From: Ardenticatenales bacterium
GTDB taxonomy: Bacteria; Chloroflexota; Anaerolineae; Promineifilales; Promineifilaceae
NCBI GenBank assembly: GCA_020634575.1
Contig: JACKBM010000053.1
Coordinates: 1-48,944 of the forward strand
Reading direction: 5' to 3'
DNA: 48,944 nucleotides
Made by a program: the position numbers and the translations under genes
Notes under the pieces: generated by a model
The model's database searches: none
What the model was told of the DNA's origin: nothing
What the model saw: the letters and a program-made list of their open reading frames with translations, nothing else
Shown here: piece after piece, positions 8,663 to 41,334 of the stretch
Layout of the letters: every line of letters starts with the position of its first letter
Position numbering within the stretch: the first letter of the stretch is position 1

Positions 8663-8700
8663 AGCGGTTGGGCGGGACCGCCGGGTTCAGCCCAACCGCT
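8663..8700. terminator. Hairpin between convergent genes, possible bidirectional terminator
   Basis: Perfect 11-bp arms at 8663-8673 and 8690-8700, with a 16-nt loop, lie between the flavoprotein stop and the acyl ligase stop. The right arm forms the last codons of the ligase. The sequence GGTTGGGCGGGACCGCCGGGTT resembles the hairpin repeat at 3419 in parts, so it may be a decayed copy put to use as a terminator. Confidence 0.5.
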
Positions 8701-10435
8701 CCCGCTGCCACTTTTCCCGATTCGCAGCGCGGGCGATCTTGCCGCTTGATGTTTTTAGCAGCCATTTGGGCGGCACCAGGCCAATGTAAGTAACGGCCAC
8801 CATCGTTTGGCGGGCCACCGCCTGCCGGATCTGCTGGTTCAGGTGCTTGCGTTCGTCAGGATCAACCGCTGACGTCTCAGCGAGGACGGCTATCAACTCC
8901 GTCCCCTCCCGTTCATCCGGCACCCCAAACACAACCACCCGGCCGGGATGGATGCCCGGCAGCTCATTGACGATGGCCTCGATATCCTGCGGATAGATAT
9001 TTTTGCCCGCGTTGATAATCAGATCTTTGCTGCGGCCAATGACGTAAAGTTCCCCGTTCAAGAGCAGGCCGCGATCGCCGGTCTGGTACCAGCCCTGGCT
9101 AAATGGCTGGAGATCCGGCCGGTGGTGATAACCGCTCAACATGCAGTCACTGCGCACCAGAATCTCCCCAACGTGACCATCGGGCAAGGTAGAGCCGACC
9201 TCATCGACAATTTGCACGCCGGTGCCAGCGATGGGTGGGCCACAGGAAACCAGTCGGGTCGATGGGTTGGTAGCACCGGCCGGTTCAACCACCGATTTCT
9301 CCAGCAGCGCTGTCGTGTCTACCACAACAACAGATGGGGGATGCCCAATCTTGGTCTGGGTTACGGCAAAGGTGTTCTCCGCCATGGCGTAGCTCACCGC
9401 CAGCATCTCCGGCCGGACGCCCAACCCGGCAAAACGGGCCAGAAAAAGCTCATGGCTATCTGCCCGTACCGGCTCAGAGCAGTTGATAAACAGACGCATT
9501 GAAGCCAGCGAAAGCCCGTCGAGATCCGCGGCGCGGACGCGGCGGGCACAATGATTGTAGGCAAAGTTGGGCAGCCAGCAGAGGGTGCCGCCATGCTGGC
9601 TGATCGCCTCCAGCAGCAGAGCCGGCCGGCGCACCCAGGCAAAGGGCGACATCAATACCAGCGGGATGCCCTGGAAGAGCGGCAGCAAGAAGCCGGCAAT
9701 CAGCCCCATGTCGTGATACAGCGGTAGCCAGCTGACCACGACATCCGTCGCGCTCAAGCCAATCGCTTCGCTGTAGCTGGCCAGCTGGTTCAGGACAGCG
9801 GCGTGGCTCAGGGCCACCCCTTTTTGCAGGCCTGTCGTGCCGCTGGAATGTTGCAGAAAGGCGATTGTTCCCTCACTTCCCTCGCTGCGTTTTAATGGTT
9901 GAGCTTTGAGGGTGGGGACGCTCGGGATGACAGGGGAGCTCGGCGTGCAATGGACGTTTGGGGTGACAGGGGCATTTGGGCCGGTGAGAGTGGTGGGGTT
10001 GGTGCTGCCGATGACGGGGCAGCCGACTGTCTGGGCCAGGAGTGGCACATAGTCGTCACTGGTCAGGACGAATTTGGCGCCGGAATGGTCTACCAGGGTT
10101 GACATGTTGGCCTGATAGACGTCGGGATCGAGTTTTTCGGTGAGTGGCGGGAAAAATGAGGGGATGACGCCCAGGTAGAGGGCTGCCCAGAACCGGTAGA
10201 TGCCGGTTAGCTCCTGATCCTGGGCGATGATCACCAGATCGCCCGGCTGGGCGCCAAGGTTGTGCAGTAGTGCGGTCTGGGCGTGTACGCCAGCCTGGAA
10301 TTGAGCCCGGCTGATCGTCTCCGTCTGGCCATCAGGGTGGATAAAATGGAGGACCGGCCGGTCCGGCTCGCTAGCCTGCCAGAAGGCAGCCTCCAGCAGA
10401 CTCTTAAATGCCTGGCGGTTCCGTAGAGTTAACAC
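8687..10435 (-). CDS. Fatty-acyl-AMP ligase-like adenylating enzyme of the Dlt-like operon
   Basis: A 582-residue AMP-forming ligase that would activate a carboxylic acid with ATP and load it on a carrier protein. Visible motifs: the phosphate loop SSGTTGLQKG at 197-206, YHDMGLI near 240-246 (typical, as I know it, of fatty-acyl-AMP ligases), YQTGDRG, KNIYPQDIE, and the C-terminal Lys566 in KTSSGKIAR. A Pro/Thr/Ser-rich stretch at about 144-188 directly before the phosphate loop looks like an inserted linker. The start is a GTG, 4 nt after the ACP stop, without a clear ribosome binding site. It is the last gene of the eight-gene operon and takes the place DltA has in D-alanylation. The substrate (fatty acid, short acid or amino acid) is not established. 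Confidence 0.9.
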   Translation of the reverse strand: MLTLRNRQAFKSLLEAAFWQASEPDRPVLHFIHPDGQTETISRAQFQAGVHAQTALLHNLGAQPGDLVIIAQDQELTGIYRFWAALYLGVIPSFFPPLTEKLDPDVYQANMSTLVDHSGAKFVLTSDDYVPLLAQTVGCPVIGSTNPTTLTGPNAPVTPNVHCTPSSPVIPSVPTLKAQPLKRSEGSEGTIAFLQHSSGTTGLQKGVALSHAAVLNQLASYSEAIGLSATDVVVSWLPLYHDMGLIAGFLLPLFQGIPLVLMSPFAWVRRPALLLEAISQHGGTLCWLPNFAYNHCARRVRAADLDGLSLASMRLFINCSEPVRADSHELFLARFAGLGVRPEMLAVSYAMAENTFAVTQTKIGHPPSVVVVDTTALLEKSVVEPAGATNPSTRLVSCGPPIAGTGVQIVDEVGSTLPDGHVGEILVRSDCMLSGYHHRPDLQPFSQGWYQTGDRGLLLNGELYVIGRSKDLIINAGKNIYPQDIEAIVNELPGIHPGRVVVFGVPDEREGTELIAVLAETSAVDPDERKHLNQQIRQAVARQTMVAVTYIGLVPPKWLLKTSSGKIARAANREKWQRERLG

Positions 10436-10439
10436 ACGC

Positions 10440-10685
10440 TCAGCCAGCCAAAACGCGCGCGACCATCTGGTTCAGCGTATCCATCTTGGCCACCGTGAGA
10501 TCGGAATCAGGGATGTAGACGTTGAATTCGCTTTCGACAAAAACGGCCAGTTCGGCCAGGGCGAAAGAGTCCATGAGGCCGCCGGTAATGATCCCTTCGC
10601 TGTCTGTCAGGTCATAATCCGGGTCGCGCATGAGGTCGGTGGTGATAAACTGGCGCAGGGCGGCGCGGACGGTGGCGTCGTTCAC
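10440..10685 (-). CDS. Acyl carrier protein (DltC-like position)
   Basis: An 81-residue carrier protein. Ser40 in GGLMDSFALAEL is the expected attachment site for phosphopantetheine, followed by the usual acidic helix (AVFVESEFNVYIPDSDL). It starts with GTG overlapping the TGA of the upstream SGNH gene (GTGA) and stops 4 nt before the ligase. Between an adenylating enzyme and an MBOAT it most probably carries the activated acyl group to the membrane, as DltC does. It could in principle also serve the nearby PKS/NRPS proteins. Confidence 0.93.
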   Translation of the reverse strand: MNDATVRAALRQFITTDLMRDPDYDLTDSEGIITGGLMDSFALAELAVFVESEFNVYIPDSDLTVAKMDTLNQMVARVLAG

Positions 10686-11806
10686 TGTAAATTTTCCTCC
10701 AGGTAGCTCAAAATCAGGTCGGCCAGCTGCCGGGTACCGGCCGGTGTCAGGTGGACCGGCGTATCGGTAAACTCCTCAGCCGGGACGGCATCCCACAAAT
10801 CAACGTAGGGCCAGCCATTCCTTTCTGCTGTCGCGGCCAGAAAAACACGGTACTCATCGTAAATCCAGCGCGGGTAGAAGGCATTGTAGTGCAGGTCGCT
10901 GTTCGCGCCGTTGCTGATGAAGATCGGCTCGTTGATCAGGATGATGGGGGTGTCTCCGGCCAGGCCATAACCAGCGGCGATCATGTCGGTGGCCAGAAGA
11001 CCGGCCGGTAATTCCGCCGCTTCACTGATGCCCTGCCAGCTGATATCAACATCAAAGTCAGACGCGCGCAATTCATACGGCACGGGCAGCGCCTGGTCAA
11101 TTCCGGTTGCTTGCCAGCTGGCGCCGTAGAGCTGCAGCCGCAGGAGATCGGCCAACGCACGCCGCTCACCGATCAGGGTGCGCGTCAGGAAATTGCCGGG
11201 CTCTGGTACATCGCCAAAGTCAAGACCATAGGCCTCCGCCAGCGCCTCGCGCCGGCCCGGGTTGTTCTGCACCAGTGGCGGCACCCCCTGTTTGTCCCGC
11301 GGGAACGCTTCCAGTGTGGTGAACCAGAGGATCAGATCCGGCTCCTCAGCCATCAGGGCGTCGAGCAGCAGCAGATCCTTGCTCAGCGCAATAATCGGGT
11401 AACCCAGGTTGTAAAAACGGATGGTCCGCCCATCTGGCGCAACCAGACCGGCAACATTGAGTTGGTCAGCCAACGCCTGCTCGTTGGTCAACAGCCAGCC
11501 CCAGACGCTGGAATCGCCCAGGAGGAAAACCCGAAACTCGTTATCGCTCGGTCTGGCTGTGACTTCGTGGCTGGCCAGCATCGCCGGGATGTTGTCCAGG
11601 CTGACGGCATAGTCGGCCTCTGGTTGGTCACCGTATGGCAGCCGGGGCCGACCGGCCCAGACGGTGTTGTAGAGCGAGAAACGGCCCAGAAAATCGGCCG
11701 GTTGCGTGACGAGATAAAGAAAGTTGCAGAGGCTGAATAAAATGGCCGCCTTGAGCAAGACACGACCCATAAACGCCCAGCTTTCGCCCTGCCGTCGCCG
11801 TCTCAT
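10682..11806 (-). CDS. DltD-like SGNH-fold acyltransferase with N-terminal membrane anchor
   Basis: A 374-residue protein with an Arg-rich start and one membrane helix at about 13-35, so the body is outside the membrane. The nucleophile motif GDSS (Ser99) and a C-terminal Asp/His pair (D348, H352 in DTPVHLTPAG) fit the SGNH hydrolase fold. It is encoded between the MBOAT and the carrier protein, with ATGA and GTGA overlaps on either side, as DltD is in dlt operons. By analogy it would take the acyl group from the microprotein tyrosine onto its serine and pass it to an envelope polymer. The acceptor is unknown. Confidence 0.85.
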   Translation of the reverse strand: MRRRRQGESWAFMGRVLLKAAILFSLCNFLYLVTQPADFLGRFSLYNTVWAGRPRLPYGDQPEADYAVSLDNIPAMLASHEVTARPSDNEFRVFLLGDSSVWGWLLTNEQALADQLNVAGLVAPDGRTIRFYNLGYPIIALSKDLLLLDALMAEEPDLILWFTTLEAFPRDKQGVPPLVQNNPGRREALAEAYGLDFGDVPEPGNFLTRTLIGERRALADLLRLQLYGASWQATGIDQALPVPYELRASDFDVDISWQGISEAAELPAGLLATDMIAAGYGLAGDTPIILINEPIFISNGANSDLHYNAFYPRWIYDEYRVFLAATAERNGWPYVDLWDAVPAEEFTDTPVHLTPAGTRQLADLILSYLEENLQ

Positions 11807-13263
11807 GCGCTTACCTCCAGGCCAAAGAGCCGGGCCAAAGTCTGCCAGGCCAGCGTCAGATCAGGCAGCAGGAACCAGACCCAACCCAACACCACGTAAT
11901 GAAAGGTGATGAACCAGGTCAACCCGGCCCAGAGCCGGCGTGGCCAGGTAGTCGCCTGCAAGTCGCGATACCAGCGGCGGGTCCGGTCGCTCCACTGTTT
12001 ATGGATGAAAAGCCCCAGCCCATGCCAGAGGCCCCAAACAAGAAAGTTCCAGCTCAGACCATGCCAGAGGCCGATGGCGATCATCGTGGCCAGCTGGGCG
12101 ACGAGGACGATCAACGTTGGTGAGGGGCGTGGCTGGCGGCGCAAGAGTGAGCGGGAGAGCGGTGTAAACAGATAATGGCGCACCCAATTACTCAGCGTGA
12201 TGTGCCAGCGCTGCCAGAAGGTGGTCAGGTTTGTCTGCAAATAGGGCCAGTCGAAGTTTTCGGGCAAGCGAATGCCAAACAGCAGGCCAATACCAATCGC
12301 GATGTCGCTGTAACCACTAAAATCAAGATAGAGGCGCAGGGCATAGCCGTAGAGCAGCAGCCAGAGACCTCCCGTCGAGGTCACCTGGGTCGCATTGCTC
12401 GGATTCAGGGCCAGACCGAGGGCAAGGCTGTCAGCCAGGACAAATTTCTTAGCTAAACCCGTGGCGATACGGGCCAGGCCCAGGCGGAAACGGCGGGCAT
12501 CCCAGCGCTCGAGGGTTGGGAGAACGAGAAGATCGGTCTCGAAGCGCTCAGCGCGGTCGATGGGACCGGCCGGTAAAGCCGCAAAGAAGATGACGTAATT
12601 CAGATAATCCGCCAGCCCAAGCGCAGGCAGATTGCCCAGCTGTTTTTCGCGCAAGGTATGGATGAGGCGAAAAGCGACGTAGGAAAAGCCCAGCCAGGCC
12701 AGATCCAGCGGTGCGGCCAGGCTCATATCCTGGCCGGCCAGGCCGCGCCAGACGGCGCTGACGGCGGTCGCCAGCGGGGCGCTTTTCCAGATGATGAAGA
12801 GGAGCAGGATGAATGTGATACCGGCCGGAATCCCCCAGTCACCCCAGCGCGACTTGAGACGCCCTAATGCCCAAACAACCAACCCCAGCAGCAGCAAACC
12901 CGGCACGAGCAGTTCCAGCCCCGGTGGCCGCACTGCGTAAATGGCCGCGGGCAAGCTGAGATAACGGTTGAGCGCCAGCAGCAGGGTCACGCCGACTGCC
13001 AGACCGAGCGCGGCCCCATCGGACCGGGAAAGGCGCTCACTGTCACCTCGAACAAACCAGTACCAGATAGCAATAGTCAGGCTCAGTAGAGCCAGAGGCA
13101 GGAGAAAGCCGCCGTAACGCACCGGCAGGCGCGGCTGCAGCCAGTAGAGTGCCAGCAGGCTCAGCAGCAGAAGGCACCAGCGCCGCCATGCCGGTGGCAC
13201 AACAGCCGCGTAGAGAAAAGCCAGCCCAATCAGCAGGGCGATAGTGCTGAGGTCAAAGGACAA
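11803..13263 (-). CDS. MBOAT-family O-acyltransferase (DltB/AlgI-like)
   Basis: A 486-residue multi-pass membrane protein. It shows the MBOAT core FWQRWHITLSNWVRHYLF and the family histidine in GLWHGLSWNFLVWGLWHG. DltB/AlgI proteins pass an acyl group from a cytoplasmic carrier across the membrane. The C-terminus (LFGLEVSA) lacks any tyrosine shuttle motif, which fits a separate shuttle protein being encoded directly upstream. The start is a TTG, three bases after the stop of that microprotein gene; a stop codon lies in frame just before it, so no longer version is possible. Its stop overlaps the DltD-like start as ATGA. Confidence 0.92.
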   Translation of the reverse strand: MSFDLSTIALLIGLAFLYAAVVPPAWRRWCLLLLSLLALYWLQPRLPVRYGGFLLPLALLSLTIAIWYWFVRGDSERLSRSDGAALGLAVGVTLLLALNRYLSLPAAIYAVRPPGLELLVPGLLLLGLVVWALGRLKSRWGDWGIPAGITFILLLFIIWKSAPLATAVSAVWRGLAGQDMSLAAPLDLAWLGFSYVAFRLIHTLREKQLGNLPALGLADYLNYVIFFAALPAGPIDRAERFETDLLVLPTLERWDARRFRLGLARIATGLAKKFVLADSLALGLALNPSNATQVTSTGGLWLLLYGYALRLYLDFSGYSDIAIGIGLLFGIRLPENFDWPYLQTNLTTFWQRWHITLSNWVRHYLFTPLSRSLLRRQPRPSPTLIVLVAQLATMIAIGLWHGLSWNFLVWGLWHGLGLFIHKQWSDRTRRWYRDLQATTWPRRLWAGLTWFITFHYVVLGWVWFLLPDLTLAWQTLARLFGLEVSA

Positions 13264-13266
13264 GGT

Positions 13267-13413
13267 CTAAAATCCCTGGTAGATCCATTGCGGCGCGCTA
13301 TCGGTGCTCAGGATAAGCAACGCGAGCAGCAGCAGACAAAGCAACACAGCATACAGATTTTCCCGGTTCCAGAGACGGCGGGCCGGCTCAGCGTCTTGTT
13401 GACGACGACTCAT
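13267..13413 (-). CDS. DltX-like acyl-shuttle membrane microprotein (48 aa)
   Basis: A short gene easily missed by size cut-offs. ATG at 13413-13411, stop TAG at 13269-13267, 48 residues. It has a polar, Arg-rich start (MSRRQQDAEPARR), one strongly hydrophobic helix at about 20-37, and ends in PQWIYQGF. DltX microproteins of dlt operons have one helix and a C-terminal hexapeptide such as FIYNEF, whose tyrosine receives the acyl group from DltB and hands it to DltD. WIYQGF keeps the aromatic, Ile, Tyr and final Phe. The ATG overlaps the upstream lipoprotein stop (ATGA), an AGGGGG sequence precedes it, and the MBOAT starts 3 nt after its stop. The gene is highly likely; the function is inferred from motif and context. 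Confidence 0.88.
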   Translation of the reverse strand: MSRRQQDAEPARRLWNRENLYAVLLCLLLLALLILSTDSAPQWIYQGF

Positions 13414-13811
13414 GGCGCCGCCCCCTCGCCACACCATTTCCACTGACCATCTTCCTGGACAACACGGTAGCTGACCAGCGGGAACTCGGTCTCTTCACTA
13501 CCGTATAGGGCCACAAATTTGCCATCGCAGGAGACGATGTCACCGCTACCGGGATAGGAGCAGGCCATATCAACCAGTTCCACACCAGTAACGCTATCAA
13601 ACGTATGGACTTCGCGCTGCAGATTCACTTCTTGCTCCGCGCAGAGGAGCGCCCCCAGCGCAGCTTCATCTCCGGTCGCTTTGGCCTCCAGGTACGCTTC
13701 GACGGTGGCTGCCGGATCATCAGCGCCACCACAGCTCGCGAGGCCGGCCACGATGACGACCATGGACAGTAAAATGACCAGATAATTGCGTCGCAAAACA
13801 GACTCCTTCAT
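13410..13811 (-). CDS. Small secreted lipoprotein, unknown
   Basis: A 133-residue protein with a signal peptide and lipobox (GLASC, Cys near residue 27), so it should be lipid-anchored outside the membrane. The mature part has four further cysteines, compatible with two disulphides, and a small alpha/beta pattern beginning PAATVEAYLEAKATGDEAAL. That start recalls NTF2-like or DUF4878-type lipoproteins, which is only a fold impression. It overlaps both neighbours by ATGA and is therefore made together with the acylation machinery. A scaffold or acceptor role is possible. Confidence 0.82.
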   Translation of the reverse strand: MKESVLRRNYLVILLSMVVIVAGLASCGGADDPAATVEAYLEAKATGDEAALGALLCAEQEVNLQREVHTFDSVTGVELVDMACSYPGSGDIVSCDGKFVALYGSEETEFPLVSYRVVQEDGQWKWCGEGAAP

Positions 13812-14905
13812 TCCGTTGCCGGCGGATTCACCAGGCGCCAGACATCATTTAAAACGATCAGGGCGGTCAGGTCCTGAATAGCGTGGCCGCTCATGAATGT
13901 CTCCGGGTCGTTAAAATCATGCGGCTCGTAGCGCACCAGGAGATGCACATTGTCCTCATCCAGCCCCTTGCCGGGAATGGTCGAGGCGACCAGGTCAAAA
14001 TCCCAGAGTGGGACCAGGTAGTCAGCGGCCGCCTGCCGGATCGCGTCGTTGTTGGAATCATCCCCCTCAAAACGATCGGGCTTGGTACCCAGAATCGGGA
14101 TGACGCCCTGGCTGATGGTGTAGGCAACAACCTTGCGCAGATTGGCCTCAAAACTATCCGAGCCATCATTTGTGCCCAACCGGATGAACAGGATGACCGG
14201 GTTATTGTAGCGGAACTCGCAATCGAGCATATGCTCGTCTTCGTTACACCATTGCTTGTAGGACCAGAATGGGTCCAGCACCCCCCAGGCATGCAGGCCA
14301 ACGCGGGCTGCCACGCCGACACGCTGGAAGGAGCCCGTGAATTGGTCGATTACTGGCTGCAGGTAGCCGTATTCACCCAGATCGTACTTACCCTCATCAA
14401 AATAAGACATGAAGTTGGGCTTCATGATGGTGGAATCGCCCAGCCGCGAAAGACGGTATGGGTTACGGCCCAGATTTTGCCCGGCCGCATAGATGGCCTG
14501 GATATTGGCGGCAACTTCGGGAGAAATGTCGACGAAGTCGGCGAAGGGAATGCCATTAACAGCCTGGGGACCGGCCGGTGTCGCCGTCGCTGTTTCGGTC
14601 GGCAGTGCTGTCTGCGTGGCCGTGGGCACAGGGGTACCATCATCAGCCATCACAACCGTCTCGGCGGGGACCGGGGTATCAGTGGGCAAGCTGGGCGGCG
14701 CTGGTAGTTCGGTGGCAGTGGCCACACTGGTGGCGACCGGCCGGTGCTCCACAGGCGTGGCTACCGCCACGGCAGCAAAGGTCGCCGACGGTGTCAGGGC
14801 CGGTGCTGGCGAAGCAGTTGGCGGCTGAACGGCCGTCTCGTTTCCGGCACAGCCCGTCAGCCAAAGCAACACCCATAAAATTACCCACCACTTTCTCCAG
14901 TTCAT
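13808..14905 (-). CDS. Secreted SGNH-hydrolase-fold lipoprotein
   Basis: A 365-residue protein with signal peptide and lipobox (LTGC, Cys19), then a Pro/Thr/Ala-rich stalk at about 25-115 and an SGNH/GDSL domain. Catalytic blocks are complete: Ser158 in LGDST, Gly-Asn block RLGTND at 242-247, and Asp318/His321 in DNVH. It could be an esterase or O-acyltransferase acting on envelope glycans. Its ATG overlaps the upstream stop (TAATG) and its TGA overlaps the next ATG. It is a clear paralogue of the gene upstream, sharing WxVLDPFW, PILGTK and VPLWDF segments. Confidence 0.88.
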   Translation of the reverse strand: MNWRKWWVILWVLLWLTGCAGNETAVQPPTASPAPALTPSATFAAVAVATPVEHRPVATSVATATELPAPPSLPTDTPVPAETVVMADDGTPVPTATQTALPTETATATPAGPQAVNGIPFADFVDISPEVAANIQAIYAAGQNLGRNPYRLSRLGDSTIMKPNFMSYFDEGKYDLGEYGYLQPVIDQFTGSFQRVGVAARVGLHAWGVLDPFWSYKQWCNEDEHMLDCEFRYNNPVILFIRLGTNDGSDSFEANLRKVVAYTISQGVIPILGTKPDRFEGDDSNNDAIRQAAADYLVPLWDFDLVASTIPGKGLDEDNVHLLVRYEPHDFNDPETFMSGHAIQDLTALIVLNDVWRLVNPPATE

Positions 14906-15981
14906 TAACCATCCTCGACCACGCTGACCGTTGCTCCTATGGGGACTACCAGACGCCGAACAGACTCCAACAGCAAGAGGGCTGACAAGTTCTGCAATGC
15001 ATGACCCCGCTGCATAGCCTCGGGCTGATCATAATCATGCGGATAAAAGGTCGTCAGGTGGACACCATCAGGCGCCAGCCCTCGTCCCGGCAACGTGGCC
15101 GCAACAAGCTCAAAATCCCACAAGGGCAACTGATACTCTTCGGCCAGGCGGCGCACAATCCCATTGTTAGGACCGCCCGGTCCGTCGATCTGATCCGCTT
15201 TTGTACCCAAAATCGGCACAATATCAAGGGCCAGCAGCGATTCGACGATCAGCCGCATGTTCTCCTCGTAATAATCGGGGGTGTTGACATCGTTGGTGCC
15301 GAGACGAATGATGGCCAGGGCAGGGTTGAGCAGCCGGATTTCACAGGCCAGCGGCGTCTCGCCAGCCTCGCAGCGGGCTCTGTCCGCCCAGAACGGGTCC
15401 AGGACCGACCAACTGTGCATCCCCTGACGCACGGTCACGCTATCCCGGCCAAAAGAGCCGGCAAAGTAGGCGAGCGTCGCTTCGAGGATCGCATAAGGTC
15501 CCAAATTGTAGTCCGGCCCATCAAAGCGAGTCAGGAAAAAGCCATCGGCGATGGAGCTATCACCTATTTTGGCGAAGGCGTGTTGGTCGCGACCGGCTAC
15601 CTGGCCGCGAGCGAAGATGTCACGCACGTGGGCAGCTACCGGGGCAGGCAGCACCACAAAGTTGTTAAGCGGCAAGTCATTCAAGGTTGCCGGCAGAGGC
15701 GGCAGGGGTGGCGCATCTGACGCGGTGGCCAGGGGCACAATCTGGGCCCGGCTGATGGCCTGTACATCAGCGGCGCTGAGATGGTTATTTTCGGCAACTG
15801 GTTGGGCGGTGGCCGGTGGCGGGACCGCGGCTGTCGCGGCCGGGGTGGCGGTTGCGCCCGGCAGGCGAGCCAGCGTGGGTCCAGGCGCCCCCAATTGGCG
15901 TTGTAAACCACGCTGAGCATTAGCCAGCAACAACAGTACAGCCGTCAAAAAAAGAATGGATCCAATACGCTTAATAGACAC
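14905..15981 (-). CDS. Secreted SGNH-hydrolase-fold protein, first gene of the acylation operon
   Basis: A 358-residue paralogue of the next gene. It has an uncleaved-looking N-terminal helix (8-21) without a lipobox cysteine, a Pro/Ala/Thr-rich linker to about residue 100, then an SGNH domain with Ser142 in IGDSS, GTND at 228-231, and Asp305/His308 in DGVH. The start is a GTG with no clear ribosome binding site; the region upstream faces the divergent LytTR gene. With two active-looking SGNH proteins besides the DltD-like one, the operon could add and remove, or add to different acceptors, the same acyl group. Confidence 0.87.
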   Translation of the reverse strand: MSIKRIGSILFLTAVLLLLANAQRGLQRQLGAPGPTLARLPGATATPAATAAVPPPATAQPVAENNHLSAADVQAISRAQIVPLATASDAPPLPPLPATLNDLPLNNFVVLPAPVAAHVRDIFARGQVAGRDQHAFAKIGDSSIADGFFLTRFDGPDYNLGPYAILEATLAYFAGSFGRDSVTVRQGMHSWSVLDPFWADRARCEAGETPLACEIRLLNPALAIIRLGTNDVNTPDYYEENMRLIVESLLALDIVPILGTKADQIDGPGGPNNGIVRRLAEEYQLPLWDFELVAATLPGRGLAPDGVHLTTFYPHDYDQPEAMQRGHALQNLSALLLLESVRRLVVPIGATVSVVEDG

Positions 15982-16120
15982 AGGCCGGCCGGTTGCCGCT
16001 CAGGCAGATCGTCGGGTGAAAATCATGGCTGATGTTATCATCCTTTGCCAGCCCTGTCTATCGGGGTCGGCGCCATTGAACCTTTGGTTTCCCGGCCATT
16101 TCCCGCTATCTTTACCCGCC

Positions 16121-17116
16121 ATGGCGTCTGTACTCACCCTGACAAACCTGTATTATCCAGATCAGGCAGAGCCGGCATTGCTGCTGGCTGATCTGAGACT
16201 GGCAGCCGGTACCGGCCTGGCCCTGGCGGGTCTCGAACCCTCGGCCAAAAACGTATTGTGGCAGCGATTGTGGGGCGATGGCGAATCTGCGCCTGGCACG
16301 TTGCACCTCTTTGGCGAGGTCGGTTCGCCACAGGCCGCCGCCGCCACCGGCCGGTTGGCCTACATCAGTGAGGCGCTGACCTGTTATCCGCAGATGACAG
16401 TCTGGGAAAACCTCAGCTGGCGGGCTGACCTGTTTGCTGTCCCGGCCGAACGTGGCCGGGCACTTATCGAACAACTCAACCTGAACGGACACCTGTCTCA
16501 GCCGGTTGTCGATCTTGATAGCACGGCACAGCGGCGGTTGACAGTGGCCCTCGCCCTGCTAACTGAGCCCGAACTCCTTCTCTGCTGTGACCCGTTGCGG
16601 CAAATCGACCGACCCGGCCAGCAGTTGATCGGGCAAATACTACGTGAGTTCGTCGCTGCCGGTGGCGCTTTGCTGGCACTGGTTGATGATCTCGGGGCTG
16701 CGATGAGCTACGCGACCCTGATCGGCCAGCTCGCCGCCGGGCAAATTAGCTGGCAGCCGGCTGATCAGGTCAGGAGTCAGGCGCCGCTGCGGCTGACCGG
16801 CCGGTACCAGGACACCATCGTCTTCATCAAGCCAGCCGAGCTACTTTACGCCACCGTTGAACAGCGCCAAACCTGGCTTTACACCACCGACAGACGCGTG
16901 CGCAGCCAGGCGACTCTCAGCGAGTTAGCGGATCAGCTGGCTGGCCATGGCTTCTTCCGCAGCCACCGTGCCTTCCTGGTCAACCTGCAACACGTGGCCG
17001 AGATTATCACCTATACCCGTGACAGTTACGGTATTGTCCTGGCCGACAAGAGTGGTCAGCAGATCCCACTGAGTAAACAATCATACCGTGAGTTACGTGA
17101 CCAGCTGGCGCTGTAG
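16121..17116 (+). CDS. Degenerate ABC-ATPase domain fused to LytTR DNA-binding domain
   Basis: The protein joins an ABC-ATPase-like region (about 1-215) to a LytTR DNA-binding domain (about 230-331, with FFRSHRAFLVNL). The ATPase part lacks the expected residues: the Walker A site reads AGLEPSAKN without GK[ST], the signature reads STAQRR instead of LSGGQ, Walker B LLLCCDP lacks the catalytic Glu, and the switch His is missing. It probably binds a partner or ligand without hydrolysis and controls transcription, perhaps of the permease gene that follows. Start: the ATG at 16121 matches the domain start. An ATG at 16025 has a better GGTGA site, and the frame is open to 15956, so the start is uncertain. 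Confidence 0.83.
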   Translation: MASVLTLTNLYYPDQAEPALLLADLRLAAGTGLALAGLEPSAKNVLWQRLWGDGESAPGTLHLFGEVGSPQAAAATGRLAYISEALTCYPQMTVWENLSWRADLFAVPAERGRALIEQLNLNGHLSQPVVDLDSTAQRRLTVALALLTEPELLLCCDPLRQIDRPGQQLIGQILREFVAAGGALLALVDDLGAAMSYATLIGQLAAGQISWQPADQVRSQAPLRLTGRYQDTIVFIKPAELLYATVEQRQTWLYTTDRRVRSQATLSELADQLAGHGFFRSHRAFLVNLQHVAEIITYTRDSYGIVLADKSGQQIPLSKQSYRELRDQLAL

Positions 17117-19730: not shown

Positions 19731-22289
19731 TTACTCGGCCGGTTCAGTCATCGGCACCACCTGTTGCGCCGCCCTAAGCTCTTCGTAGAGGACGCCAAGT
19801 GTCACCGCCAGATTGCGCGATCCGATCAAACTACGATGGTCGCCCGGGACCTCGCGAATCCGCAGCTGCCGCACATCACTTTCCCAGCCCTTGCTGTGAT
19901 CGACGTGGTCAAACATCTTCCATTCTTCTGCGGCCCGCAGCAGCAGGACCTCCCCCTTGTAGGGGTGGGCCCGGTATTGGCTCCAGAGCCGGTCAAAATG
20001 GTCAAACATGTAGACTTCATGCTGCTTCTGGGACAGATTCTCGCGCTCCGGCCCGTTCTCGCGTTGGTGGCGATATTGGGTAATCCGCCAGGCAATCCGG
20101 ACGCGGACAAATTTGCGTAGATGGTGCCATGGATCTCGGCAAGCGTCGATTAGCCTCTCGAAGAAGCCCACCTGCCGCGGCCGCACGGAGGGGTGGAACG
20201 TATCGATGAGCGTAAGCAACGCAACCTCATGGCCCAGCCGGTGGAGCTGCTGGGCCATCTCGTAGGCCACCACACCTCCGCCAGAGTAGCCGCCCAGATA
20301 ATAGGGGCCTTCTGGCTGCCGGCGCCGCAATTCGCTGACATAGGTGCGGGCCATGCTTTCAATCGATTGATGGGCCTCACTAATGTCCTCATAGCCACGC
20401 GCCTGAAATCCGTAAAGTGGCAGCTCAGGCAAATGTTCGCGCCACTCATTCAGGAAAAGCACATGACCGCCGGCGCCATGGACACAATAGAACGGTTGGA
20501 ACTGGGGTGACCCTTCGTTGATCTTGACCAGCGCGTGGTACTGGGGCTCCTGCGCCCGCGCCTGGCCCTGTTCGTCGATAAGAGCAGCCAATTCGGCAAT
20601 CGTGCGATAGTCGTACATCACAGCCAGCCGGAGGGGTGCATTCAGTCGCTGCCGGATCTGGCTGAACAGCCGCACCGCCAGCAGCGAATGGCCGCCAGCA
20701 GCAAAGAAATCCTCGTGGATGCCAATTTTCTCAAGGCCCAGTAGCTCTTGCCATATCTGCACTAGAGTACGCTCTGTCTCTGTACGCGGTGCTGCTGCCG
20801 GGGCGGTGTCCGGAGAACTGTCTGGCGCCAACTGCGCGGCTACTAGCGGGACGCCCCTGGCTGTCAAAACCAATTGGTCCGGTTCAGCCACAACCTGGCA
20901 CAGCAGCCGGTAATATTCGTCGAGGAGTTCCTGTAACTGCGCCCGGGTAAAAAGCTGACGATCATAGACAACGGTTAAACCGATACCATGTTGGTTTTCC
21001 TCGGCATACACAGTGATATCAAATTGCGCGTTCAACTCGGTGCGCGAGAGCCAGGCAACATTTAGATCCACATCCGGGTTGATGTTCTGCTCAAAATTGA
21101 GCATGTTAAAAAGGATTTGAAAATAAGGATTACGCCCAAAACGCCGCGGTGGGTTGAGCTGAGCGACCAGCTGTTCAAAAGGAATATCCTGATTGGCCAT
21201 CCCATCCAGGCAGGTTTGCTTGACCTTTTCCAGAAGCTGGCGAAAGCTGAGATCACCGGCAAGTTGAGTACGCAAAGCCAGGGTGTTGACAAAGAAACCG
21301 ATAAGCGGCTCCAGCTCAACCTGGCTCCGGCCGGATACCGGCGTCCCCACAACAATATCCCGTTCCCCCGTCTGCCGGCTCAGCAACAACTTAAAGACGC
21401 TCAACAACCCCATGAACAGCGTGGCGCTCTGCTCACGGCAGAGCTGGCCCAATCGGGCGGCCACGTTCTGCGGGATGTCCAGCATGATCTGTTCGCCCAC
21501 AAAAAGCGCCTCACCGGTGCGCTCGGCTACGGTGGGCAGTTCTACGGCGGCCAGGGGCGGGGCCAATTGGCGTCGCCAGTAGGCAAGTTGAGCCTGATAG
21601 CTCTGCTCGGTCTGGGCTTGATGTTGCCACCAGGCGTAGTCGCCATATTGGCGGGTGAGTTCGGGCAGCTGAGGTGTTTGCCCGGCCAGGTATGCCTGAT
21701 AGGCCGTCAGCAGCTCGCCCAGGAGCAGATTGACCGACCAGCCATCGGCAATGATATGGTGCATGGTCAGGGAAATAACGTGACTGGCCGGCGCCAGCCG
21801 GATCAGATGCAGCCGGGCTAACTCATCACGCCCCAGATCAAACCGATATTCCGCTTCCTGCTTCAGGGTCGCCTGCATTGCCGCAATCTGCTCAGCGCCC
21901 TGTCGCGCTGTCAGGTCAGTCGCCAGCAGCGGGAACGTAATAGGCGGCCGCACAAACTGATACGGGACGCCGTCCGCCTCGGCAAAACCGGTGCGCAATG
22001 TCTCATGGCGTTGCCAGATGAGGTTGACGGCTTTTTCCAGCAGTTGCGTCTCTATCGGCACATCGAGCCGAAACGCGACGTGGATATTGTTGGCGCCGGT
22101 GCTGCCATACATTTGCTCCAGAAACCAGACACGGGCCTGGGCATAGGCCAGGGGAATCTGCCCATCTGCCGGCCGTTTTTCTATCTGGGTGCTACTGGAC
22201 TCGTTCAGCAGCTGCTCTTCGGCCAAGATCAGCTCTAACAGCGCCAGACGATCGTCAGATATCTCGCCGGAATGATCCTGAATATCCAT
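19731..22289 (-). CDS. NRPS-type C-PCP-TE protein, copy 1 (no adenylation domain)
   Basis: 852 residues. A short N-terminal helix-rich tail (SDDRLALLELILAEEQLL) is followed by a condensation domain with MHHIIADGWS (His177-His178, Asp182), a carrier domain with Ser535 in GGHSLLA, and a type I thioesterase with Ser669 in GYSGG, Asp696 and His818 (PGDHRS). It would join an amine or alcohol partner to a carrier-bound chain and release the product by hydrolysis or cyclisation. There is no A domain, so the carrier must be loaded in trans or act by simple transfer. It starts 11 bases after the PKS stop and is third in that operon. A full-length paralogue lies at 38737-41334. Confidence 0.94.
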   Translation of the reverse strand: MDIQDHSGEISDDRLALLELILAEEQLLNESSSTQIEKRPADGQIPLAYAQARVWFLEQMYGSTGANNIHVAFRLDVPIETQLLEKAVNLIWQRHETLRTGFAEADGVPYQFVRPPITFPLLATDLTARQGAEQIAAMQATLKQEAEYRFDLGRDELARLHLIRLAPASHVISLTMHHIIADGWSVNLLLGELLTAYQAYLAGQTPQLPELTRQYGDYAWWQHQAQTEQSYQAQLAYWRRQLAPPLAAVELPTVAERTGEALFVGEQIMLDIPQNVAARLGQLCREQSATLFMGLLSVFKLLLSRQTGERDIVVGTPVSGRSQVELEPLIGFFVNTLALRTQLAGDLSFRQLLEKVKQTCLDGMANQDIPFEQLVAQLNPPRRFGRNPYFQILFNMLNFEQNINPDVDLNVAWLSRTELNAQFDITVYAEENQHGIGLTVVYDRQLFTRAQLQELLDEYYRLLCQVVAEPDQLVLTARGVPLVAAQLAPDSSPDTAPAAAPRTETERTLVQIWQELLGLEKIGIHEDFFAAGGHSLLAVRLFSQIRQRLNAPLRLAVMYDYRTIAELAALIDEQGQARAQEPQYHALVKINEGSPQFQPFYCVHGAGGHVLFLNEWREHLPELPLYGFQARGYEDISEAHQSIESMARTYVSELRRRQPEGPYYLGGYSGGGVVAYEMAQQLHRLGHEVALLTLIDTFHPSVRPRQVGFFERLIDACRDPWHHLRKFVRVRIAWRITQYRHQRENGPERENLSQKQHEVYMFDHFDRLWSQYRAHPYKGEVLLLRAAEEWKMFDHVDHSKGWESDVRQLRIREVPGDHRSLIGSRNLAVTLGVLYEELRAAQQVVPMTEPAE

Positions 22290-38736: not shown

Positions 38737-41334
38737 TCAGGCGGGAGAACCGCAAGTTGATAGCGGGCGTGGGCCAGGATCGGGGGCGGAAAGAAGGCCC
38801 GCATCGGGTTGGGCCGAACTCAGTTCTGCCTGCAGTACCTGCAACATCACCGGTAAATTCGGCTGGCTGATCACTGTACGATGATCGCCGGGGACCTCAC
38901 AAATCCGTAACGTCTTCACCGTCGCAGCCCAGCCTTTGCTCTCGTCGACATGATCAAAGATCTTCCATTCTTCCGCAGCGCGAAGCAGGACGACTGGGCC
39001 GGCATAAGGCTGAGCGTCGTACTGGCTCCATAGCCGGTCAAAATGGTTAAACATGTAGACTTCCAGATGCGCCTGCGGCAGCGTTTCGCGCCCGCGATTT
39101 TTCTCCCGCTTGTGCCCATATTGGGCCAGCCGCCAGGCAATTTGCACCCGCACAAACTTACGCAGGTGATGGACGGGATCTTTGACGGCATCGAGCAGCC
39201 TTTCAAACAAGCCAATTGAACGGGGCCGCACGGTGGGATGAAACGTGTCGATGAGCGCCAGCAGGGCAACATCCTGCCCCGACCGGTGCAACTGCTGAGC
39301 CATCTCGTAGGCGACGACGCCGCCACCGGAATAACCACCGAGATAATACGGCCCCTCGGGCTGTTGGCGGCGCAATTCCGCGACATAGGTGCGGGCCATG
39401 CTTTCAATGGATTGATGAGCCTCGCTGATATCCTCGTAGCCACGGGCCTGGAAGCCGTAGAGCGGCACAGCAGGCAAATATTCCCGCCATTCATTCAGGA
39501 ACATCACATGGCCACCGGCGCCATGGACACAATAGAATGGCTGGAATTGCGGTGATCCCTCGTTAATTTTGACCAACGCATGATATCTGGGTTCAGCAGC
39601 CTGGGGGGTGTTGTGCTGGTCGATAAGCCCGGCCAGCTCGGCGATCGTCCGATAATCGTAAATGACGGCCAGGCGCAGGGCGACATTCAGCTGCTGCCGA
39701 ATCTGGCTGAACAGCCTTACGGCCAGCAGGGAATGGCCGCCGGCGGCAAAGAAATCCTCGTAGATGTTGCTGGGTGGTGCACCGAGTAGATCCTGCCAGA
39801 TCTGCGCTAAAGCGCGCTCTGTGGCTGTGCGCGGCCCGGTTGCCAATGGCGCGTCAGCCGGGTCATCAAGCATGATTGGCGCCGGCAAAACCGGCTCGCC
39901 AGATGCCGTCAATACCAGTTGATCAGGCGCCGCCACAACCTGGCGCAAGAGTTGCAGGTAATCGTCCAGGAACGTTTCCAACTGCGCCCGAGTAAAGAGT
40001 TCACAATCATAAACAACCGTCAGGCCTATCCCGGACGAGGTTTCTTCGGCGTAGACCGTGATATCGAATTGGGCGTTTAGCTCCGTGCGGGAGAGCCAGG
40101 CGATCTCCAAGTCGCCATTGGGATTGAAGTTTTGCTCGTAGTTGAGCATGTTGAACAGAATCTGGAAGTAAGGGTTGCGGCCAAAGCGACGGGGCGGATT
40201 CAGGTGCGCGACCAACTGTTCAAACGGTATGTCCTGATGAGCGATGCCGTCCAGGCAGGTCTGTTTGACCCGATCCAGCAGCTGCCTGAAACTTAGGTCG
40301 CCGGTCAATTGGGTGCGCAAGGCCAGCGTATTCACAAAATAACCGATCAGGGGTTCCAGCTCAACCTGGCTCCGGCCGGATACCGGCGTCCCCACAATGA
40401 TATCCCGCGCGCCCGTCAGCCGGCTGAGGAGCAGCTTGAACGTGCCCAGCAGCCCCATAAACAGGGTGGCACCCTGAGCACGGCATAGCTGGCCCAGACG
40501 AGCCGCCACAGCCTCTGGAATATCCAGCAAAATCTGGTGGCCCTTAAATTGCGGCTTCTCGCTCCGCTCGGCGACCGTTGGCAGTTCCACTTGAGCCAGG
40601 GGGGGCGCCAATTGACGGCGCCAGTACGCCAGCTGCTCCTGGTAGCTCTGCTCAGCCCGGGCCTGGTGCTGCCAGTAGGCAAAGTCACCGTATTGGCGCT
40701 GAAGTTCCGGCAGCTGGGGTGCTGTGCCGGCCGCCAGGGCCTGATAAGCACCGAGCAGCTCACCCAAAAACAGATTCACTGACCAGCCGTCGGCGACGAT
40801 ATGGTGCATGGTCAGGGAAATGACGTTACCGGCCGGTGCCAATCGAATCAAATGCAACCGGGCCAGCACGTCCTGGCCCAGGTCAAATCGGAAGCCCGCC
40901 TCCTGCGCCAGGAGCGCCTGCAATGCCTCGGCCTGACCCGCCCCTTGCAACGACCTCAAGTCGGTCAATAACAAGGGAGTTTCGGCATACGGCTGGACAA
41001 ACTGATACGGGACCCCATCCACCTCAGCAAAGCGGGTGCGCAATATCTCATGGCGGCGCCAGATATGATTCACAGCCTCTTCGAGCAATTCCGGCCTGAG
41101 AGAAATATCGAGCCGGAAGGCCGCGTGGATATTGTTGGCGCCGGTGCTGCCATACATCTGCTCCAGAAACCAGACCCGTGCCTGCGCATATGCCAGCGGT
41201 ATCCGGGCCGTTTCCGGGCGGGCCTGAATCTGGGCCGCATTATCCTCGGTCAGCAACTGCTCTTCAGCCAGCATCAGCTCTAGAAGGGCCAATTGCTCTT
41301 CAGATAGCTCGCCGGAAAAGTCCTGAATGTCCAT
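38737..41334 (-). CDS. NRPS-type C-PCP-TE protein, copy 2
   Basis: 865 residues, same domain order as the protein at 19731-22289 and alike over its full length. Short helical N-terminal tail (LALLELMLAEEQLL), C domain with MHHIVADGWS (His177-His178), PCP with GGHSLLA, thioesterase with GYSGGG, LIDTFHP and PGDHRT. It differs from copy 1 in a longer C-terminal tail (about 13 residues, Pro/Ser-rich). No A domain. It is transcribed alone, convergent with the NRPS, from the divergent region it shares with the flippase gene. It may act on a different chain, or offload the second NRPS. Confidence 0.94.
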   Translation of the reverse strand: MDIQDFSGELSEEQLALLELMLAEEQLLTEDNAAQIQARPETARIPLAYAQARVWFLEQMYGSTGANNIHAAFRLDISLRPELLEEAVNHIWRRHEILRTRFAEVDGVPYQFVQPYAETPLLLTDLRSLQGAGQAEALQALLAQEAGFRFDLGQDVLARLHLIRLAPAGNVISLTMHHIVADGWSVNLFLGELLGAYQALAAGTAPQLPELQRQYGDFAYWQHQARAEQSYQEQLAYWRRQLAPPLAQVELPTVAERSEKPQFKGHQILLDIPEAVAARLGQLCRAQGATLFMGLLGTFKLLLSRLTGARDIIVGTPVSGRSQVELEPLIGYFVNTLALRTQLTGDLSFRQLLDRVKQTCLDGIAHQDIPFEQLVAHLNPPRRFGRNPYFQILFNMLNYEQNFNPNGDLEIAWLSRTELNAQFDITVYAEETSSGIGLTVVYDCELFTRAQLETFLDDYLQLLRQVVAAPDQLVLTASGEPVLPAPIMLDDPADAPLATGPRTATERALAQIWQDLLGAPPSNIYEDFFAAGGHSLLAVRLFSQIRQQLNVALRLAVIYDYRTIAELAGLIDQHNTPQAAEPRYHALVKINEGSPQFQPFYCVHGAGGHVMFLNEWREYLPAVPLYGFQARGYEDISEAHQSIESMARTYVAELRRQQPEGPYYLGGYSGGGVVAYEMAQQLHRSGQDVALLALIDTFHPTVRPRSIGLFERLLDAVKDPVHHLRKFVRVQIAWRLAQYGHKREKNRGRETLPQAHLEVYMFNHFDRLWSQYDAQPYAGPVVLLRAAEEWKIFDHVDESKGWAATVKTLRICEVPGDHRTVISQPNLPVMLQVLQAELSSAQPDAGLLSAPDPGPRPLSTCGSPA

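Follow-up and report, generated by a model that had tools for sequence, protein, structure and literature searches.

In the Dlt pathway, the MBOAT protein moves D-alanine from a carrier protein to a tyrosine in the tail of the microprotein DltX, and DltD passes it on; in PatA/PatB and AlgI/AlgJ/AlgX, the MBOAT carries the motif as a fused part of its own chain, and acyl-CoA serves as donor (passages of PMC12148441). The same passages of this 2025 paper state that PatA has been shown to acetylate the tyrosine of its own C-terminal motif, that acyl-tyrosine has been reported for DltX, and that MBOAT/SGNH pathways other than Dlt are without a carrier and a DltX-like microprotein. Here, we characterize an eight-gene operon in a 48,944-nucleotide stretch of DNA from an Ardenticatenales bacterium (contig JACKBM010000053.1 of assembly GCA_020634575.1; hereafter, the window). 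The operon is real and conserved; within our literature searches, this predicted variant of the Dlt-type acyl shuttle has not been described.

The operon is likely to carry an acyl group other than D-alanine, probably a fatty acid, out of the cytoplasm and onto an acceptor in the envelope. Its core consists of (i) a one-helix microprotein, (ii) an MBOAT, (iii) a membrane-anchored DltD-like SGNH protein, (iv) a carrier protein, and (v) an AMP-forming ligase (Table 1). The transfer chemistry, the acyl group, the acceptor and every reaction step are read from the anatomy of the genes. The ligase would form an acyl-AMP and charge the carrier's phosphopantetheine arm at Ser40. The loaded carrier would dock at the cytoplasmic face of the MBOAT, where His354 and His401 would transfer the acyl group to the microprotein's Tyr45; the C-terminus of the microprotein would lie on the outer side. 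The microprotein tail would then swing to the DltD-like SGNH protein, whose Ser99 would accept the acyl group and esterify the envelope acceptor, probably a glycan or protein-bound glycan. Where present, accessory secreted SGNH proteins and an NTF2-like lipoprotein may act on the acylated product or relay the acyl group.

The core gene set recurs in relatives from diverse Chloroflexota. A profile was built from 24 MBOATs, and the best 80 of 591 stretches, from named genomes, were kept; the closest MBOATs (L001–L019) carry Chloroflexota names, in line with the host group given in the earlier note. These 19, further stretches chosen by their MBOAT and the window make up 55 MBOAT loci (L149, a duplicate of L012, was dropped), many of them cut by contig ends; genes were called with a simple open reading frame (ORF) caller. 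All five core genes are found together in 25 of the 55 loci, window included, and in all 25 the carrier and ligase genes follow the MBOAT gene in the same order. The search of Chloroflexota MBOAT neighbourhoods that the earlier note had proposed as a check thus finds the five core roles recurring together. Counted singly in the 55 stretches, the DltD-like gene is present in 44, the lipoprotein gene in 34, the carrier gene in 32, at least one secreted SGNH gene in 31, and the ligase gene in 30. Among 12 genomes picked for having no ligase near the MBOAT, ten carry one elsewhere (E ≤ 1e-80), while in G180 and G914 none was found elsewhere in the genome at this threshold; in G376, the ligase lies 9 kb beyond the MBOAT. 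The record of Leptolinea tardivitalis strain YMTK-2 likewise has lipoprotein, microprotein and MBOAT genes in one place (L013), with the ligase, the carrier and a secreted SGNH protein encoded in another part of the genome (L237). Clustering of the ORFs from 59 stretches put the same genes on top (MBOAT in 52 stretches, SGNH proteins in 44, ligase in 30, lipoprotein in 29, carrier in 19); the next cluster covers 14 stretches at scattered positions (clusters were judged only by their first residues). Several relatives (L017, L160–L162, L172, L174, L177, L179 and L180) make do with the five core genes, and so we regard both the lipoprotein and the secreted SGNH proteins as accessory.

The earlier note had staked its reading on conservation of the microprotein (MSRRQQDAEPARRLWNRENLYAVLLCLLLLALLILSTDSAPQWIYQGF) beside the MBOAT. 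This holds: in 46 of the 55 loci, window included, the microprotein gene immediately precedes the MBOAT gene, with at most 137 bases between the two as measured by the aligned part. Among the nine exceptions, one has the microprotein 2 kb upstream of the MBOAT (L145), five have it elsewhere in the genome (L002, L004, L147, L167, and L015, where it belongs to a second complete core operon, L222), and in three none was found (L003, L007, and L016, which begins at a contig edge). A chance small ORF can be ruled out by three observations. Firstly, the DNA signature WIYQGF-stop occurs in 34 of 400 Chloroflexota genomes (37 matches), while the reversed control pattern has no match in the same 400. 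Secondly, the signature is found in none of 299 genomes from Bacillota, the phylum of a Paenibacillus genome (these sets, and one of 199 genomes used below, are samples of larger groups). Thirdly, in 48 distinct microprotein C-termini, positions outside any search pattern are conserved: proline at -7 and alanine at -26 are invariant, and glutamate at -30 is found in 47. The first motif position is tryptophan, not phenylalanine, in 47 of the 48. The ending IYQGF was required by the script pattern that yielded these 48 C-termini; it was not required for the count among L001–L019, 13 of which carry, immediately 5' of the MBOAT gene, a small ORF with the ending WIYQGF.

The microprotein signature and the MBOAT travel together. 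The MBOAT subfamily (profile search, E ≤ 1e-60, at most three candidates scored per genome) is present in 34 of the same 400 Chloroflexota genomes, 33 of which also carry the signature (Fisher p 5e-46, uncorrected for relatedness). In G244, the MBOAT is present and the C-terminus reads QFIYQGF, which is invisible to the W pattern; the match in G302 is a 6-codon ORF and was taken as chance. A word-based protein search for the microprotein reached only eight proteins, against the 34 of 400 genomes reached by the DNA signature, and no PDB match was found for the microprotein by sequence. Profile comparison of the Chloroflexota microproteins gave a probability of 61.8 with nine DltX-like proteins and 30.1 with the C-termini of fused MBOATs (0.1 for reversed sequences in both cases), falling to 3.4 without the last seven residues; the motif was itself a criterion in choosing the DltX-like and fused sets, which biases the comparison. 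These values weakly support homology to DltX-like proteins beyond the motif itself.

The MBOAT passes the Pfam MBOAT model (9.9e-21, 74.8 bits, cut-off 27), and its sole NCBIfam match is DltB (TIGR04091, 227.8 bits, below the cut-off of 375). Profile matches in the PDB are to DltB only, with the FWxxWH and WHG blocks aligned. Residues W350, W353, H354, W400 and H401 are invariant in 58 of 58 sequences, a set that includes a few other MBOAT genes from the same stretches. For this and the other invariance counts given here, length limits were used and ORFs cut by the end of a stretch were left out beforehand (ORFs kept: MBOAT 58/59, DltD-like SGNH 36/42, secreted SGNH 38/41, carrier 27/31, ligase 30/30, lipoprotein 34/36). 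Neither the window MBOAT nor any of its 23 aligned homologues has a C-terminal FxYxxF motif; the motif is found on the separate microprotein instead.

The same division appears in an MBOAT tree, the rows of which were thinned by hand (106 in a first tree, 58 in a careful one) and the deep root of which is not fixed. In the 58-row tree, the 32 MBOATs with a C-terminal FxYxxF form one clade (support 95/88). On the other side stand 19 rows (support 91/97): the window, 14 Chloroflexota, DltB (L196), L232, L020 and L021. A carrier gene accompanies the MBOAT in L196/L233, L232, L020/L234, L021, the window, L002, L005, L009, L012, L014, L017, L018, L019 and L178; among the 14 Chloroflexota tree rows, no carrier was seen in the stretches of L001, L011, L145, L148 and L168. 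Four rows with very long branches in the 106-row tree (L045, L192, L031, L191) were left out of the 58-row tree, in which the exact places of L196, L232, L024 and L037 are unsure because of their long branches. L048 was grouped by hand with the 'split' rows although no microprotein was found beside it. In this tree, the window MBOAT thus falls with DltB and further systems that have a carrier protein, and is separate from the FxYxxF-fused MBOATs. Two MBOATs (L061, L065) end in PIYLQF, with proline in place of the motif phenylalanine.

The resemblance of the MBOAT, carrier and microprotein to DltB, DltC and DltX raises the question of whether this is an ordinary, if diverged, dlt operon that adds D-alanine. 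The ligase speaks against this. It contains a Pfam AMP-binding domain (1e-52), and its top NCBIfam match is the fatty acyl-AMP ligase (FAAL) model PRK09192 (330.5 bits, below the cut-off of 600); neither DltA model (PRK04813, TIGR01734) appears in the best 25 of its 109 NCBIfam matches. Its best PDB matches include FAALs by name (3pbk, FadD32, FadD23, FadD28), with CoA ligases coming after, and DltA is not named in the best 60 of 100. The others among the best, including 3kxw, we take to be FAALs too; in the alignment with 3kxw, gaps in the query span at most nine residues between residues 184 and 571. Lys566 is conserved in 30 of 30 ligases. By its closest families, then, the ligase is of the FAAL type, not DltA.

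A canonical dlt operon (L233: carrier, DltD, DltX, DltA and DltB) served as a positive control. The control DltA scores 570.6 bits against PRK04813 (cut-off 476) and falls short only of TIGR01734 (544.4 against 559.85); the control also passes for DltB (TIGR04091, 445.3 bits), DltC (PRK05087, 74.8; TIGR01688, 74.4), DltD (PF04914, 319.2; TIGR04092, 318.2) and DltX (PF12459, 33.7; cut-off 25). None of the window proteins reaches the cut-off of any Dlt family. The best PDB matches of the carrier are DltC chains (6bug_A, 8jf2_F; E about 1e-3), but its scores stay below the DltC cut-offs (PRK05087, 27.2 bits against 68; TIGR01688, 19.3 against 52.35) and that of Pfam PP-binding (17.3 against 20.8), with D39, S40 and F41 conserved in 27 of 27 carriers. 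The DltD-like protein does not match PF04914 or TIGR04092, and the microprotein does not match PF12459 at E up to 1. Ser99 and His352 of the DltD-like protein are invariant in 36 of 36 homologues; like the small lipoprotein, it has no PDB match by sequence. On these family tests, with the control in place, we reject an ordinary dlt operon as highly improbable. The operon is thus not Dlt by family test, and by tree and anatomy would work like Dlt. The earlier note had called it a complete, re-targeted Dlt pathway: the five recurring roles and the FAAL-type ligase support the re-targeting, while 'complete Dlt' should be read as 'works like Dlt' because no window protein attains a curated Dlt cut-off.

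A FAAL beside a carrier could also serve a different pathway altogether, leaving the MBOAT to use acyl-CoA as PatA does. A region of non-ribosomal peptide synthetase (NRPS) and polyketide synthase (PKS) genes lies 4 kb away (19731–47015), and FAALs feed such enzymes, according to passages of PMC8460268. Moreover, no carrier is seen in 23 of the 55 Chloroflexota stretches, and some Bacillota sets of microprotein, MBOAT and SGNH protein (L229–L231) show no carrier nearby. This proposal is nevertheless hard to square with the carrier and ligase genes coming after the MBOAT gene, in an unchanged order, at all 25 five-gene loci, with the grouping of the MBOAT among carrier-bearing systems, and with the finding that only one of 58 relative stretches matches three window NRPS/PKS proteins (at least 150 residues, E ≤ 1e-20). 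We therefore consider it improbable, and membership of the ligase and carrier in the NRPS/PKS region is disfavoured. The region itself includes two C-PCP-TE proteins (19731–22289 and 38737–41334) that are 75.5% identical over 842 residues, as well as a reducing PKS module protein, a KS protein, a dimodular NRPS, a polysaccharide-exporter-like protein and a further NRPS.

All eight tightly linked minus-strand genes described in the earlier note exist, with the junctions it gave: in the order of transcription, from the secreted SGNH protein to the ligase, these are TAATG, ATGA, ATGA, a 3-base gap, ATGA, GTGA and a 4-base gap. One boundary moves: the note placed the low end at 8663, while the ligase stop codon ends at 8687, such that the operon proper spans 8687–15981. 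The arrangement is more than chance, because the gene order recurs in relatives and the microprotein is invariant at positions outside any search pattern. A promoter scan found four sites, against a mean of 2.5 (sd 1.5) in shuffles. Terminator-like sites number 19 against a mean of 6.0; the majority lie within genes, and one (8682–8663) is directly 3' of the ligase. On the opposite strand, the start of a divergent gene (15956–17116; ABC-transporter-like N-part and LytTR DNA-binding domain) overlaps the 5' end of the operon, and is followed by genes for an ABC-2 membrane protein and an Rce1-like protease.

Table 1. Genes of the operon in the order of transcription, with window coordinates and putative functional residues.
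Feature	Coordinates	Strand	Details
Secreted or anchored SGNH protein, 358 aa	14905..15981	-	GTG start; GDS (Ser142), GTND (Asn230) and His308 intact
Secreted SGNH lipoprotein, 365 aa	13808..14905	-	lipobox LTGC by eye; GDS, GTND and His blocks intact
Small lipoprotein, NTF2-like fold	13410..13811	-	lipobox Cys27 and four more invariant Cys; alternative start 13796
One-helix microprotein, 48 aa	13267..13413	-	C-terminus PQWIYQGF; putative acyl-shuttle Tyr45 = 13281-13279
MBOAT, DltB side, 486 aa	11803..13263	-	TTG start; His354 = 12204-12202, His401 = 12063-12061; without C-terminal FxYxxF
Membrane-anchored DltD-like SGNH protein, 374 aa	10682..11806	-	Ser99 = 11512-11510; His352
Carrier protein, 81 aa	10440..10685	-	GTG start; putative phosphopantetheine site Ser40 (LMDSF) = 10568-10566
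AMP-forming ligase, FAAL type, 582 aa	8687..10435	-	GTG start; conserved KTSSGK Lys566 = 8740-8738

The extra secreted SGNH proteins to which the earlier note drew attention are real, but accessory. In the window, the first falls slightly below the cut-off of Pfam Lipase_GDSL_2 (31.7 bits against 32.9), and the second matches the same model weakly (18.2 bits). Alignment of 38 secreted SGNH proteins, the window's two included, shows the catalytic nucleophile to be cysteine in 28 and serine in ten; both window copies have serine, asparagine and histidine. The triads are Cys/Asn/His (15), Ser/Asn/His (9), Cys/Asn/Tyr (5), Cys/Trp/His (4) and Cys/Gly/His (2), with Cys/Ala/His, Cys/Ile/His and Ser/Val/His seen once each. 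Block I reads GDC for GDS in, for example, L007, L012, L014, L018, L019, L150–L157, L163–L166 and L178, and many Cys forms have lost the GxND sequence around the asparagine position. Because some keep asparagine and histidine beside the cysteine, the alignment suggests that certain Cys forms may still be active, perhaps as transferases; those with tyrosine for histidine are probably inactive. In L223 and L145, several secreted SGNH copies flank the microprotein.

These proteins open up a variant of the proposed mechanism. For alginate acetylation, a two-stage SGNH relay through AlgJ and AlgX has been proposed. By analogy, the DltD-like protein might only receive the acyl group, leaving the final transfer to the secreted SGNH proteins, which could also be editing esterases. 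That such genes are found in over half of the 55 stretches, at times in several copies, and that both window copies retain serine, asparagine and histidine are consistent with a relay. The five-gene loci that do without secreted SGNH proteins (the nine core-only relatives above) are not; neither is the cysteine in place of serine in most relatives' copies, five of 38 having lost the histidine as well, so that some may be inactive. A relay of this kind is possible, if somewhat unlikely, and we favour direct transfer to the acceptor by the DltD-like protein.

Related arrangements exist in other phyla. L232 (Acidobacteriota) has a separate microprotein ending VPFIYQGF, with 39% (MBOAT), 40% (carrier), 47% (ligase) and 31% (SGNH) identity to the Chloroflexota queries. 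L024, of the same phylum (Acidobacteria by title), encodes an MBOAT with a fused FLYFQF, followed by a carrier (60% identity) and a ligase (53% identity); through this natural fusion, the motif of the microprotein is linked with the MBOAT. The ligase search found two of 199 genomes in this phylum, a lower bound because it missed L024's own genome (G404) with its 53% identical copy. L021 and L020/L234 (Clostridia by title) contain an SGNH protein, an MBOAT, a microprotein ending GTGF[QE]YxGF, a carrier and a ligase; the ligases of L021 and L234 are nearest acetate-CoA ligase (503.2 bits, and 353.5 bits for the incomplete L234; cut-off 729). In the Bacillota sample, L229–L231 combine an MBOAT and a DltX-like microprotein with genes that are SGNH-like by eye. 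Two acidobacterial stretches (L026, 9680–15521; L027, 9653–15097) encode an MBOAT with a fused FVYGNF followed by two further genes, a carrier protein and a protein that by eye resembles ketoacyl-ACP synthase III; this is a possible further way to supply an acyl group.

With regard to the literature, no paper in the open-licence PubMed Central collection that we searched combines 'fatty acyl-AMP ligase' with 'MBOAT', and 'Chloroflexota', 'cell envelope' and 'acyltransferase' have no joint occurrence in that collection; nor is Chloroflexota mentioned among the matches listed for its DltX/DltB papers. The kind of system is already known; new are the ligase, the host phylum, the occurrence of a separate microprotein in a system other than Dlt, and accessory SGNH proteins of the Cys type. 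With both a carrier and a microprotein present, the Chloroflexota family is a sequence-level counter-example to the generalisation about MBOAT/SGNH pathways made in the passages of PMC12148441 introduced above.

More speculatively, and with considerable doubt, the set of carrier, MBOAT, microprotein and SGNH protein may be a general, ligase-swappable machine for outer-surface acylation, of which D-alanylation is one case. A DltA-type ligase would supply D-alanine, an acetyl-CoA-synthetase-like ligase a short acyl group (some Clostridia), and a FAAL-type ligase a fatty acyl group for a surface glycan (Chloroflexota and a few Acidobacteriota). Cys-for-Ser SGNH proteins might run a second stage in Chloroflexota, with a thioester favouring transfer over hydrolysis. 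The Chloroflexota family itself would make the Dlt mechanism one member of a modular class, and it predicts an uncharacterised envelope acyl modification in a phylum whose envelopes are poorly known. The same chassis with a different ligase would be a natural experiment on what sets acyl specificity, and the Cys-for-Ser proteins are a separate, testable oddity.

Dlt (DltABCDX) is among the known systems closest to the operon. Both have a ligase, a carrier, an MBOAT without a shuttle motif of its own, a one-helix microprotein with a C-terminal [FW]xYxxF, and a membrane-anchored SGNH protein, and the operon's MBOAT falls on the DltB side of the tree. Unlike Dlt, the operon has a FAAL-type ligase in the place of DltA, tryptophan at the first motif position, scores below every Dlt cut-off, accessory SGNH proteins, an NTF2-like lipoprotein, and a Chloroflexota host. 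With PatA/PatB and AlgI/AlgJ/AlgX it shares an MBOAT and SGNH proteins with an acyl-tyrosine shuttle motif, and the alginate system likewise has two kinds of SGNH protein; it differs from these in having a carrier protein and a motif that sits on a separate microprotein. Finally, its ligase type and dedicated carrier recall the FAAL and acyl carrier protein pathways of lipid and natural-product synthesis, except that the operon joins the carrier to an MBOAT shuttle rather than to a PKS or NRPS.

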